The notes under the pieces are model-generated. The model was not told where the DNA came from. It did no database searches and saw only the letters and a program-made list of their open reading frames with translations. Below, piece after piece: positions 26,929 through 36,656 of a stretch of DNA of 47,122 nucleotides (position 1 is its first letter; each line of letters begins with the position of its first letter). Position numbers and translations under genes: made by a program. The stretch is from an uncultured Bacilli bacterium (GTDB taxonomy: Bacteria > Bacillota_I > Bacilli_A > RF39 > UBA660), in assembly GCA_944359085.1 (NCBI GenBank), contig CALVSQ010000006.1, positions 1 through 47,122 of the forward strand, read 5' to 3'.

Positions 26929-26986
26929 ATTAATCTCCTTTTCTACATCTTTATTTTTTCAATTATCATAATTGCTCATTTATAAC

Positions 26987-28417
26987 CTACCTTTTAGTAA
27001 ACTCTCTTATTAATCTTTTAGCTTGAGTAGTTACAGTTTTATCAAGCCAATCTTCTCTTGGTCCATAAGATAATATATCTGTTATAATTCTTACTCTATC
27101 TTTACTTTTTAGTACATAATCCGGTTCAACAACCCTATCATTAACTATAGCTGAAACCATTGTATTTCCAACATCTGGTCCAATACTATAAGCAAAGTCA
27201 ATAATAGTAGATCCTTTAGGTAATTCTATTATATCACCTTTAGTTGTATAAACATATATTCTATCAGAAAATAATTCTGATTTTACTTGTCTCACAAAAT
27301 CTTGATTATCTGAAAAAACACGATTAATTTCAATTAAAGATTTAAAAAATTGATATTTATTCTTTAAATCCTCTTGCATTATATATCTAGCATTTCCTTT
27401 ACTTATATCCCAATAAGCTGTAAGACCAAAGGAAGCAATTTTATCCATATCAAATGTTCTTATTTGAGTTTGAACTAACCTTTCTTCTTCTCCAAAAACA
27501 GTTGTGTGTAAAGATCTATACATATTAGTTTTAGGATTACAAATATAATCTTTAAATTTATCATTCACAGGATGATATTTAGAATGAATTAATCCTAAAG
27601 TTTGATAACAATTAGCTATATTATCAACCATTATTTTTAAAGATAATAAATCATGAATATCTGCTAGTTTATGTCCTTGTTCCATTCTTTTATATATCCC
27701 ATAAATATTTTTAGTTCTTAATTTAATTTCATGTGGAATGTTTTTATCATTTAATATTAAATTAATTGTTTGTAACATTTCCTGTAAACAATTTTTACTT
27801 TCTAATTCTATTTTTGATTTAATTTCTTCAATTCTTTTATATTTATCAGGATAAAGGTATTGAAGTGATAAGTCTTCTAATTGTGATTTTATTCTATAAG
27901 CTCCAATGTAATAAGCAAGTGGTACAAATATATCCATTGTTTCTAATGAATTTTCTTTTTGTTTAAATTCCGATTTAAATTGTAATGTTTGCATATTATG
28001 AAGCCTATCAGCTAATTTAATAATTATTATTCTAACATCATCAGTTATACTAGTTATTATTTTTCTAGTATTAGCATAATTTTGGTCTTGTTTAGAAGAA
28101 AAATTCATTTTAGCCAATTTAGTAACACCATCAACTAAATTAGCAATATTTTCATTAAAATCATGAGCTATTTCTTCTTTTGTTATATTAGTATCTTCTA
28201 ATGTATCATGTAACAATCCTGCACATATGGTATCACCATCAGCATGCATGTCAGCTAAAATACAAGCAACATTTAGAGGATGAATTATATAAGGTTCCCC
28301 ACTTTGTCTAAATTGTCCACTGTGTAAAATACTCGCATATTCATAAGCTTTTTTTACCTTTTCTATTTCTTCTGGATTGTACTCATTTAATTTTCCAATT
28401 AAAACATTTAAAGTCAT
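26987..28417 (-). CDS. Rel/SpoT homologue with intact hydrolase and degenerate synthetase
   Basis: 476 residues. The HD hydrolase domain is intact: HSGQFRQSGEPYIIHPL, LLHDTLEDTN and IIKLADRLHNMQTL. The synthetase domain aligns well (NIYGIYKRM, DIHDLLSLKIMV, KFKDYICNPKTNMYRSLHTTV), but where active enzymes have E-[VI]-QIRT it reads QTQIRT, so the metal/catalytic Glu is Gln. AIR is SLK, NGYQS is NMYRS and MHxxAE is MDKIAS. A TGS domain follows (DRIYVYTTKGDIIELPKG), after which the protein stops; the zinc-finger and ACT domains are missing. I infer a (p)ppGpp hydrolase without synthetase activity. GGAGGT fixes the ATG at 28417. A leader-peptide attenuator precedes it. Confidence 0.88.
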   Translation of the reverse strand: MTLNVLIGKLNEYNPEEIEKVKKAYEYASILHSGQFRQSGEPYIIHPLNVACILADMHADGDTICAGLLHDTLEDTNITKEEIAHDFNENIANLVDGVTKLAKMNFSSKQDQNYANTRKIITSITDDVRIIIIKLADRLHNMQTLQFKSEFKQKENSLETMDIFVPLAYYIGAYRIKSQLEDLSLQYLYPDKYKRIEEIKSKIELESKNCLQEMLQTINLILNDKNIPHEIKLRTKNIYGIYKRMEQGHKLADIHDLLSLKIMVDNIANCYQTLGLIHSKYHPVNDKFKDYICNPKTNMYRSLHTTVFGEEERLVQTQIRTFDMDKIASFGLTAYWDISKGNARYIMQEDLKNKYQFFKSLIEINRVFSDNQDFVRQVKSELFSDRIYVYTTKGDIIELPKGSTIIDFAYSIGPDVGNTMVSAIVNDRVVEPDYVLKSKDRVRIITDILSYGPREDWLDKTVTTQAKRLIREFTKR

Positions 28418-28438
28418 AATAAAATACCTCCAAAACAC

Positions 28439-28476
28439 AAAAAAGGCAACCAAAAATATTTTTAGTTACCTTTTTT
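28439..28476 (-). terminator. Attenuator hairpin in front of the Rel/SpoT gene
   Basis: An 18-bp stem with two G-U pairs: AAAAAAGGTAACTAAAAA pairs with TTTTTGGTTGCCTTTTTT, loop of two bases, ending in a T run, in the minus direction. It starts inside the last codons of the leader ORF and ends about 21 bases before the Rel start codon. It stands between its own promoter and the gene, so it is an attenuator rather than a gene-end terminator. Confidence 0.85.
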
Positions 28477-28521
28477 AAACAATATAAATGAAGAGTTATA
28501 ACGACATAAATTTATTCTCAT
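28462..28521 (-). CDS. Leader peptide of the Rel/SpoT gene
   Basis: A 19-residue ORF, MRINLCRYNSSFILFKKGN, behind the extended ribosome binding site GGTGAGGTGAGGAG. Its last Lys-Lys-Gly-Asn codons and TAA stop form the 5' arm of the attenuator hairpin. A ribosome that reaches the stop would cover that arm and prevent the terminator; absent or stalled translation would allow it. The transcription start inferred from the promoter lies about 24 bases upstream of the ATG. I know no family for the peptide. There is no run of a single regulatory amino acid, so it may sense translation state in general. Confidence 0.7.
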   Translation of the reverse strand: MRINLCRYNSSFILFKKGN

Positions 28522-28551
28522 ACTCCTCACCTCACCAAATAATTAAGTAGC

Positions 28552-28580
28552 ATTTTACTCTCATATTATTAAGTTGTCAA
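28552..28580 (-). promoter_or_regulatory. Consensus promoter of the leader-Rel unit
   Basis: TTGACA (28580-28575), exactly 17 bases, then TAAAAT (28557-28552) on the minus strand. It lies just after the alaS-like gene, so the Rel unit has its own start. Confidence 0.85.
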
Positions 28581-30580: not shown

Positions 30581-31420
30581 TTAATTTTCTTCAATATATT
30601 TTATTCCAATATTATTATTGTTTGTTATAGCACTATTTCCAGTTTCTTGTTCATATAATAATCTAGTAGTTTTAGCTACATTATCACCTCTTCTAGCAAC
30701 ATTCATATTTTATTTTAATCCAAGTGGCTTTTCTTTTTTAGCAATATCTCTTGTTGTTATTTCTCCTATATCAATAAGAGCAATTTCAATATCACTCATA
30801 TTATCTCTTAATGATTCTTTTCTTAATCCTTTAAAATTTTTATATTCATTAGCCTTCATTCCTGACCAAGTTTTATATATTTCATTTGTTAATATTGCAT
30901 ATTCATAATTTTGATTAATTCCATTCTCTTTCCATACATCAGTTAATTTTTTTCTATTAAGTATTCCCTTTAATCTAACTTCAATCCAACTATCATCATA
31001 ACCTTTATTTCTATAATAATCTATTGCTCTATTAATAGCTTTTTCTGGATCAAACACTTCATCAATTCTTTCTTTACCCAAATTAGCCAACCACATTTTA
31101 AAAGGTTCTGCTTTAGGACTTGGAATTGATTCAATAAGTCTTAATATTCCTTCAGTATTTAATGTATCAGTTAAATAATATTTATTATCCTTTTTAGATA
31201 GTAACTTAAGTTGTACGATTTTTTCGTACAACTTACTTCCCTCTGATACTAATTTTCTTTTAATATCTGACCAATATCTTTTTGGAATATTACTATCAGT
31301 TAATACTTTAATTACATCAACAACACTAAAATAGTAATCTTCTTTTTCACTATTCCAAATACTTCTAATTTCTGTTCCTTCAAATAAATTTGTAATTGTT
31401 TTTAAATTGTTTTCTTTCAA
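30581..31420 (-). pseudogene. BRO-N/DinD-like antirepressor gene with a premature stop
   Basis: The first part encodes 236 residues with a BRO-N-type domain: NLFEGTEIRSIWNSEKEDYYFSVVDVIKVLTDS, YYLTDTLNTEGILRLIESIPSPKAEPFKMWLA and later ITTRDIAKKEKPLGLK. Such proteins are phage antirepressors or DinD-like DNA-damage proteins. At 30712 a TAA stops the frame, but the same frame continues for 42 more codons with NMNVARRGDNVAKTTRLLYE, which is the conserved end of the family (usually KPxGLKEN-xxxARRGGxVA). One base change (GAA to TAA) explains it. The start is a TTG at 31420 behind AAAGGAGG. The truncated product lacks about 15% and may or may not work. Confidence 0.8.
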
Positions 31421-31442
31421 AATTGATTCCTCCTTTGCTTAA

Positions 31443-31495
31443 ATAATTATATTAGTGGATAATATAATTATATCAAACGAACGTTTTATAATCAA
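31443..31495 (-). promoter_or_regulatory. Promoter and large operator of the BRO-type gene
   Basis: TTGATT (31495-31490), 17 bases, TATAAT (31472-31467) on the minus strand. A perfect inverted repeat ATAATTATATTA / TAATATAATTAT with a 5-base spacer (31443-31471) covers the -10 box and transcription start, as expected for a repressor site. It could be autoregulated or respond to a phage-type repressor. Confidence 0.65.
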
Positions 31496-31510
31496 TGATT
31501 TTGAAATACT

Positions 31511-32017
31511 TTAATTAAAAATTTGTTTTAAATATCTTAAATATAATTCAAATATATTAGCTTTCTTAACATCATCTTTAACAGTTAAATCTATTGTTCT
31601 GATAACATTGTTATCTTCTTTTAAAGTAAGTTTTCCAACCACATCCCCCTTAGATAATGGTGCTTTTAAATTATCTACTTCTACTTCATATGTAAAATTT
31701 CCAGTTCCGTCGTTTTTATTATATAAATCTGTAACATCTTCTTTAGCAACTATACCAACATTTTCTACTTTTCCTTTTTCCACACTAACCTCTTCTAAAA
31801 CTGTTTCAGTATCAACTATTTTCTGTAATCCATATTGTGCATATACATAATCAAATACACTTGATACATCTTTATTTCTTGTTTCACTATCCGGTTCACC
31901 CATAACAACAGTAATTATTCTCATATCATTGATATTAGCAGTAGCAGTTATACAAAAACCAGCTTCAGAAGTATATCCAGTTTTAAGTCCATCTACTCCT
32001 TTGTAAAATCTGACCAG
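31511..32017 (-). pseudogene. dacA: 3' half of interrupted D-Ala-D-Ala carboxypeptidase gene
   Basis: 168 codons plus stop. Translation in the frame of the joined gene begins LVRFYKGVDGLKTGYTSEAG, with the KTG box of penicillin-binding proteins, and continues through MRIITVVMGEPDSETRNK, a PBP5-type C-terminal domain and an amphipathic tail (FELYLRYLKQIF) that would attach to the membrane. There is no start codon with a ribosome binding site at its 5' end; the first ATG (31924) is past the KTG box. The SxxK and SxN boxes are in the 5' half at 36.8-37.4 kb. The 4,740-bp element at 32018-36763 lies between the halves. Confidence 0.92.
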
Positions 32018-32033
32018 TTTATTTGTACATTAA
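32018..32033. repeat. Left attachment junction of the argGH element
   Basis: Core TTTATT (32018-32023) followed by T and the arm GTACATTAAT (32025-32034 region). The dacA side continues as CTGGTC on the minus strand. The arm is the exact reverse complement of the arm at the other junction. Confidence 0.8.
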
Positions 32034-32076
32034 TATTACTATAATAAATAAAAAATTATATATCTTTTTTTGTTAT

Positions 32077-33501
32077 TTAAAATTCAACATTTTTGATAAT
32101 TACTGTATCGTTAACTTTTTCTACTTCAATAAATTTAACAAATCGTTCTAAAAAAATTTTCTTTTCGTGATTATTCAAATTTATAAAATTATTTTTTAAA
32201 TTAATAATTATTTTTTTTATTTTTTCTAAACTATTTGATTGTATAATGCTATTAGATTTCAACTCTTTATATAATAAATTTATTTTATTATCAATTACTT
32301 CTTTTATTTGTTTAAATGTTTCATAATCTATATTATCCATAGAAAATAATTCCGTTATATTATATCTTTTTTTCTTTAACTTCGTTATTTCTTCTTTAAT
32401 CTTTTTATTATCATTATTTTCCATCAATTGATTTTTTTCTTCTAAAACTCGTTCATTAAAATCAAAATTTTCAATGGTATCCAAAAATTTAAGAAAAGCC
32501 TCTTCCATTTTTAAATGAGAAAATCCACAAGTATCACAGCTATCATTATATTTACCATTACATCGGTAAGTAATATATTTCTTACCATTTTGTATTTGTT
32601 GTTTAGCATGAAATTTATTTCCACATTTAGAACATTTTAATACTTTAAAATAATACGTATCGTCTGATGAATATCTATTTGTTTTGAGTTTATTTCTTTT
32701 TTTTATCAAATTTTGAACATTATAAAATAAATTTTCGTTTATTAGTGGTGTTATATTTTTACCAATTACTTCGAAACTATTTTTTTTCTTTACACCATAT
32801 CTAATATTACCAATATAAAGTGGATTAGTTAAAATAGAAGAAATAGTTGATTGATTCCAATTTCCACCTCTTTTAGTATGTACATTAAAATCTTTTAATT
32901 TTTCTGCTATTTTTAACATTGATTCACCATTCAAATACCATTCATATATTTTTTTTACATACTTAGCTTCTTCATAATTAACTTTTAATATTCCTTTACC
33001 TATTAAATAATCATAACCAAATACTCCGTTACAATTAGTATAATTTCCTTCCTTTGTTTTTTGTTCATAACCAAAACTAACTCTTTCTGCTAAATTTTCT
33101 CTTTCAAATTCAGCAAATATTCCAATTATTTTCACAAACATTCTACCAACAGCATTTGAAGTATCAATTTTTTCAGTTTGAGAATTAAACGTACAATTAT
33201 TTTTATCAAATAATTCAATCAAATATATTAAATCTTTAACGCTACGAGTCAATCTATCTAATTTATATACTAGTACATTTGTAATTTTTTTAGCTTTTAC
33301 ATCATTAATTAATCTATTTACTTCAGGTCTTTCAGTCAAATTTTTACCACTTATACCATCATCGATATAATAATCCACAATATTCCAATCATTTATTTCA
33401 GCATATTTAGTAAGTTTATCCTTTTGAGCGTTTATACTAAATCCTTCATTTGCTTGTTCTTCTGTAGATACTCTAACATATATCGCTGTTTGCATGAACA
33501 T
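32077..33501 (-). CDS. Large serine recombinase (integrase)
   Basis: 474 residues. Resolvase domain with catalytic Ser12 in AIYVRVSTEEQANEGFS, the arginines in YKLDRLTRS and the helix IFAEFERENLAERV; a recombinase domain (GYDYLIGKGILKVN...STISSILTNPLYIGNIRYG); a zinc ribbon with CSKCGNKF and later Cys residues in YRCNGKYNDSCDTCGF; then a long coiled coil and a C-terminal beta part (FLERFVKFIEVEKVNDTVII). This is the architecture of phage and transposon integrases that act on short attP/attB sites. It lies 54 bases from the left end of the element. Its ribosome binding site AGAAG is inside a hairpin overlapping the end of the small ORF. Confidence 0.95.
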   Translation of the reverse strand: MFMQTAIYVRVSTEEQANEGFSINAQKDKLTKYAEINDWNIVDYYIDDGISGKNLTERPEVNRLINDVKAKKITNVLVYKLDRLTRSVKDLIYLIELFDKNNCTFNSQTEKIDTSNAVGRMFVKIIGIFAEFERENLAERVSFGYEQKTKEGNYTNCNGVFGYDYLIGKGILKVNYEEAKYVKKIYEWYLNGESMLKIAEKLKDFNVHTKRGGNWNQSTISSILTNPLYIGNIRYGVKKKNSFEVIGKNITPLINENLFYNVQNLIKKRNKLKTNRYSSDDTYYFKVLKCSKCGNKFHAKQQIQNGKKYITYRCNGKYNDSCDTCGFSHLKMEEAFLKFLDTIENFDFNERVLEEKNQLMENNDNKKIKEEITKLKKKRYNITELFSMDNIDYETFKQIKEVIDNKINLLYKELKSNSIIQSNSLEKIKKIIINLKNNFINLNNHEKKIFLERFVKFIEVEKVNDTVIIKNVEF

Positions 33502-36408: not shown

Positions 36409-36656
36409 TAAAAAAGCTCTAGATAAATATCTAGAGACGACAAATTCGCGGTACCACTCTAATTGTCTATTATAAATAGACCACCTCAAATCAATAACGG
36501 AATTACCCGGAATATTATACTTTGCTTTTAATTACACATTTCCAACAATCACTCATAAGCTCTTTTCAATTATTCTAGACTGTTAGACTTTCACCATCTC
36601 TAACTCGCTTTTGCCATCAAAATAACCTACTTCTCTTAGTCGTCGCTTTTTTATTA
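36409..36656 (-). ncRNA. T-box leader of argGH
   Basis: The T-box bulge motif TGGTACCGCG (36456-36447) precedes a terminator CTCTAGATA / TATCTAGAG with six or seven T (36436-36411), about 45 bases before argG. Upstream are the stem I features: AGTA-containing internal loop (GAAGTAGG), a GTTAGA / TCTAAC stem capped by GATGGTGAAAG, and the opposite strand with GAAAAGAGC (36567-36559). AGA in that stretch (36563-36561) would be an Arg specifier, fitting argG; AAG (Lys) can also be read there, so the codon is not certain. Uncharged tRNA would allow readthrough. Confidence 0.9.

Follow-up and report, generated by a model that had tools for sequence, protein, structure and literature searches.

Why is a rel gene of an uncultured Bacilli bacterium preceded by its own promoter, a short open reading frame (ORF) with a ribosome-binding site (RBS), and an intrinsic terminator, and could a ribosome on this leader decide whether RNA polymerase reaches the gene? 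The locus lies on the minus strand of the window, i.e. the whole stretch of 47,122 nt of DNA analyzed here, in the order alaS (30380-28596), promoter, leader ORF, terminator, rel, and trpS (26928-25795). An earlier note on this DNA had described a consensus promoter, a 24-base leader, a 19-codon ORF with an extended RBS, and an 18-bp terminator hairpin in front of rel, and each of these parts was found where it had been placed (Table 1). A scan of 3 kb detected three terminator-like sites against 0.4 ± 0.6 in shuffled sequences, the folding energy of the leader corresponds to z = -5.5 relative to shuffles, and the hairpin is separated from rel by only about 22 nt. A second hairpin in the predicted fold is formed by the leader RBS (segment A) and a segment inside the ORF (segment B).

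Table 1. Features of the rel leader and gene in the window
Feature	Coordinates	Strand	Description
Sigma-70 type promoter, TTGACA-17-TAAAAT	28552..28580	-	11/12 consensus match; kept in close relatives
Promoter boxes	TTGACA 28580-28575; TAAAAT 28557-28552	-	17-nt spacer
Segment A, leader RBS, ending with the A of the leader ATG	28521..28537	-	Shine-Dalgarno (SD) duplex -10.7 kcal/mol; pairs with segment B
Leader RBS sequence		-	GAGGTGAGGAG
Leader ORF, 19 codons	28462..28521	-	MRINLCRYNSSFILFKKGN; ATG 28521; stop TAA 28464-28462, within the terminator 5' arm
Cys codon TGT (codon 6), candidate regulatory codon	28504..28506	-	29 nt before the terminator; in-frame Cys hot spot of the family
Segment B, anti-RBS stretch inside the leader ORF	28480..28497	-	AACTCTTCATTTATATTG; A:B -13.5 kcal/mol, z -2.5
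Intrinsic terminator	28438..28477	-	18-bp stem, 4-nt loop, -17.7 kcal/mol, T-rich tail
rel Shine-Dalgarno, GGAGG	28427..28431	-	Read from sequence
Short rel	26987..28417	-	476 aa; ATG 28417; HD hydrolase, RelA_SpoT domain with E323Q, TGS

The gap between rel and trpS (26929-26986) is short, about 58 nt, and has no evident terminator, so that the attenuator may also act on trpS in the genus of the window. Just upstream of alaS, two minus-strand ORFs resemble a serine recombinase (32077-33501) and a phage antirepressor (30710-31420), which suggests that the ORFs within 30710-33501 of the window belong to an inserted element.

The short Rel protein and its distribution

The gene encodes a second, short Rel beside a normal long one: the same genome has a 724-residue Rel on another contig, to which the short protein is 51% identical. 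As assigned with Pfam and NCBIfam, the short Rel shares the HD, RelA_SpoT, and TGS domains with the long bifunctional Rel of Bacillota, but it stops after TGS and lacks the C-terminal regulatory domains, carries E323Q and an altered synthetase motif, and is preceded by a leader. In a motif census, E323Q was present in 99/99 short Rel proteins, whereas E was retained in 20/20 long ones, and the HD motifs (R, HD..ED, LADRLHN) are invariant or nearly so across the 99 short proteins; the positions come from an alignment to B. subtilis Rel, the first residues of which, outside the motifs, were filled in. In the streptococcal RelSeq, E323Q abolishes synthetase activity (PMC13299517). Because its hydrolase motifs are intact while its synthetase domain carries this inactivating substitution, the short Rel, judged by its sequence, is very probably a dedicated, hydrolase-only (p)ppGpp enzyme.

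In the searches made, at strict thresholds, the short Rel was confined to the window's own family of uncultured gut Bacilli; the matches that bear a name are assemblies from gut metagenomes labelled Bacilli, and the closest of these is Candidatus Faecisoma merdavium. A survey of 2011 recorded Mollicutes with only Rel, at zero to one per genome (PMC3153485). The short Rel proteins group apart from the long ones, and the leader is found on most of their branches and is missing on some early ones. In deeper branches without a leader (L095, L096, L098, L099, L130, L135, and L136), the promoter sits near the start of rel. Two short Rel genes whose upstream leaders differ considerably coexist in several genomes (L006/L031, L002/L032, L069/L071, and L061/L098), some of which also carry the long Rel. 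A phage origin was rejected, as relatives were not found in viral contigs.

Conservation of the leader within the family

We compared 165 distinct upstream regions, of which 144 precede short Rel genes; the latter represent many genera of a single family. A terminator lies just before rel at 122 of the 144 short-Rel loci, compared with 12% of neighbouring genes; at ΔG <= -8 kcal/mol, the respective counts are 116/144 and 29/245 other genes, and several of these 29 control terminators are evident T-box leaders. A clear open leader ORF of at least 13 codons with a good RBS and promoter was identified at 110 loci (66 after thinning by Rel similarity), a few of which may be wrong because leader starts were picked by SD and promoter score. 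The median SD energy of the 110 leaders is -8.45 kcal/mol, and promoters with at least 9 of 12 matches are located 18-48 nt, mostly 26-34 nt as counted from the -10 box, upstream of 113 of the 122 leader starts. Two loci, L058 and L100, were scored as lacking a terminator, yet their leaders are visible by eye. Among the family loci compared, the leader is absent from the long Rel genes. The leader-ORF attenuator layout before a (p)ppGpp-hydrolase gene, which the earlier note had proposed for a single locus, is thus family-wide, with a direction of control that we predict below. The element is wider than one locus, and the RBS:ORF hairpin and the Cys-codon checkpoint are features that had been missed.

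The five closest sequences retain the promoter, the RBS, the ORF of 19 codons, and the terminator; in the most distant of the five, compensating indels shift the element, and the ORF still ends inside the terminator arm. Substitutions in the leader peptide are distributed over codon positions as 90/104/81, i.e. with neither third-position bias nor a coding signature, in a comparison where leader pairs below about 80% identity are mostly chance alignments; constraint on the frame is therefore seen in its openness and its Cys codons only. A conserved functional peptide was rejected on these grounds, as the sequences diverge freely, and such free change is as expected for a leader. No Rfam family was detected at the leader, the only hits being chance matches with E of 2.7 and 4.

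The position of the stop codon is less informative than it appears. The earlier note had concluded from the geometry that the terminator is blocked once a ribosome completes the ORF; in these genomes, however, ordinary genes end equally deep inside their own terminators (median +9.5 nt versus +12 nt for the leaders, p = 0.22). The stop position alone thus proves nothing, and the stop within the hairpin was discarded as a diagnostic geometry. Gene ends within their own terminator hairpins are common in the compact genomes of these loci.

Pairing of the ribosome-binding site and in-frame cysteine codons

Two other properties of the leaders, the A:B pairing and the in-frame Cys codons, are the strongest evidence. 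On the 66 thinned leaders, A:B complementarity amounts to z = -1.54 ± 0.20. For each B the leader's own A fits better than the A of foreign leaders (p = 3e-8 and 4e-8 in two analyses, values that are optimistic, like that for Cys below, because the thinning leaves some shared ancestry), so A and B covary. The predicted folds hold A:B in 101/110 leaders and the terminator in 110/110. On the same 66 leaders, A:C, B:C, and B:D gave z of about 0, and all tested pairs except the terminator arms were near zero; likewise, own-versus-foreign complementarity was not detected for B:C, A:C, A:D, M:C, or M:D. Since B:C is even worse than in foreign pairs (p = 0.0017), the textbook antiterminator (2:3 pairing) appears to be absent. 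The possibility that B serves as an anti-SD of rel itself, i.e. translation attenuation, was rejected, as the rel RBS:B comparison gave no signal (p = 0.63).

Read in frame, the leaders contain 104 TGC codons; the two other frames contain 24 and 25. Cys codons are densest at the 5' edge of B, 20-40 nt ahead of the terminator, and make up 14-16% of codons there and 21-24% in the central bin; the peak exists in frame only, which rules out an artefact of composition or RNA pairing. At the edge of B, Cys accounts for 13.9% of in-frame codons, compared with 5.7% and 3.6% out of frame. Among the over-represented leader residues, Cys is a clear outlier (OR 3.3, p = 1e-8 on the 66 leaders). The local excess is about three-fold relative to out-of-frame codons of the same leader segment (about 4-5%), which are the fair baseline, and seven-fold relative to Rel proteins (0.9% Cys), a baseline that inflates it. 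Cys is placed with respect to B or the terminator and not to the stop codon. Few Cys codons lie closer than 10 nt to the hairpin, and about 14% of the leaders contain no Cys. More than half of the Cys codons in the hot spot are TGC, versus 11% (52/459) of the rel Cys codons at the same 110 loci.

Proposed control of the hydrolase by the leader ribosome

Because no alternative RNA pairing is detected, the only evident route past the terminator would be a ribosome, or some protein, sitting on its 5' arm. The lack of a detectable antiterminator together with the conserved RBS lock provides stronger grounds for ribosome-dependent read-through than the geometry does. For the earlier proposal that the hydrolase is tied to translation, the grounds are now the conserved anatomy, the lock, and the lack of a detectable antiterminator; it loses the geometry argument, and read-through upon translation is what we infer from the remainder.

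On balance, we lean towards a translation-gated transcription attenuator that controls the dedicated (p)ppGpp hydrolase and needs both brisk initiation and charged Cys. The transcript would begin some 24 nt upstream of the leader ATG. A prompt ribosome would trail RNA polymerase through the ORF, clear the Cys codons, and come to rest on the terminator's 5' arm, and the polymerase would then enter rel. Upon late loading, the end of the ORF (B), once transcribed, would pair with the RBS (A), locking the leader, and the terminator would form; the lock thus implies that loading has to precede the synthesis of B. Under a shortage of Cys-tRNA, a ribosome paused at the Cys codons would still be about 6-26 nt away from the terminator, far enough back to leave it free to form. 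In starvation, no hydrolase would be produced and (p)ppGpp would be spared; this direction of control would suit an enzyme that ought to be missing at such times. The direction, the role of cysteine as signal, and the physiology are what we infer from the leader. Points against the model are that in B. subtilis the polymerase usually outruns the ribosomes, that about 14% of the leaders lack Cys, that the peptides have no third-position bias, and that the opposite sign has been proposed for the Cys leader described in Rhodobacterales (PMC8632094). A more specific version, which we offer tentatively and with some doubt, is that the self-locking leader gauges the speed of ribosome loading and the charging of Cys-tRNA, gating the hydrolase as a positive-feedback switch: because (p)ppGpp slows initiation, high (p)ppGpp would shut off its own destroyer.

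The main rival is a classical Cys attenuator of the opposite sign, in which a ribosome stalled at Cys prevents termination and the hydrolase rises when cysteine is short. It would account for the in-frame Cys hot spot, a stalled ribosome would cover B and leave the RBS open, and read-through upon stalling has been proposed for the Rhodobacterales cysS leader uORFC-8-2 (PMC8632094). Such a device, however, normally needs an antiterminator, for which there is no pairing signal and B:C is worse than in foreign pairs, and Cys codons are rare at less than 10 nt from the hairpin, where stalling could block it directly; we regard it as rather unlikely. It is less probable still that Cys codons act only through slow decoding, which would keep the ribosome at a set pace behind the polymerase, so that general translation and not cysteine supply is sensed: Cys is indeed rare in these proteins (0.9% in Rel), but Trp, an even rarer residue, shows no enrichment, and strong over-representation in frame is confined to Cys. 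A leader that senses drugs or encodes an arrest peptide, like those of ABC-F and erm genes, in which antibiotics or the nascent chain stall the ribosome and rel is turned on, shares its layout with leader-ORF attenuators of Bacillota resistance genes such as vmlR (PMC9226507); the freely diverging peptides, the tracking of RNA elements by Cys irrespective of the distance to the stop codon, and the lack of an antiterminator make it improbable. That the hairpin is simply the terminator of an upstream gene (alaS in the window) followed by a chance ORF, with no regulation, is highly improbable, since the promoter separates alaS from the hairpin, the same parts recur in relatives with unrelated upstream sequence, only about 22 nt lead from the hairpin to rel, and neither the Cys signal nor the A:B signal would be expected.

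Our preferred model, the translation-gated attenuator, shares with ribosome-mediated attenuators (trp, his, and ilv; the vmlR and erm class in Bacillota) a promoter, a short ORF with an RBS, an intrinsic terminator, and an output expected to depend on the leader ribosome. It differs in having no detectable antiterminator, in the conserved pairing of the RBS with the ORF end, and in its target, a (p)ppGpp hydrolase. Judged by its sequence, the rel leader has the features of a leader-peptide attenuator (ORF with RBS, terminator, and codons placed relative to structure), the classical antiterminator excepted. The closest parallel in cysteine, uORFC-8-2 before cysS, carries a tandem pair of Cys codons near positions 14-15 (PMC8632094); both are Cys-codon upstream ORFs that favour UGC, with the Cys codons in stem 1 and the terminator as stem 2. 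The rel leader, however, belongs to another phylum and gene, its Cys codons vary in number and position instead of forming a fixed tandem, its first stem pairs with the RBS, and its predicted sign is opposite.

In T-box leaders of the same genomes, amino acid supply likewise governs a terminator before the gene, but the T-box reads the tRNA directly, whereas the rel leader uses a translated ORF and has no T-box match. One such T-box leader (Rfam RF00230, 114.9 bits) is located in the window at 36430-36652, on the minus strand, before argG-like and argH-like ORFs, and in relatives evident T-box leaders lie ahead of several aminoacyl-tRNA synthetase genes.

In the open-access literature searched, no gene for Rel or SpoT was found to be described as controlled by a leader ORF, in agreement with the earlier note, which knew of none for a Rel gene. 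The turnover of (p)ppGpp is commonly attributed to the activity of the Rel protein itself. Here, a hydrolase-only second Rel is seemingly placed under a transcriptional ribosome test by a self-locking RBS without an antiterminator, an attenuator design simpler than the textbook one. Decay of the alarm signal would thereby be coupled to translation and to the supply of cysteine.
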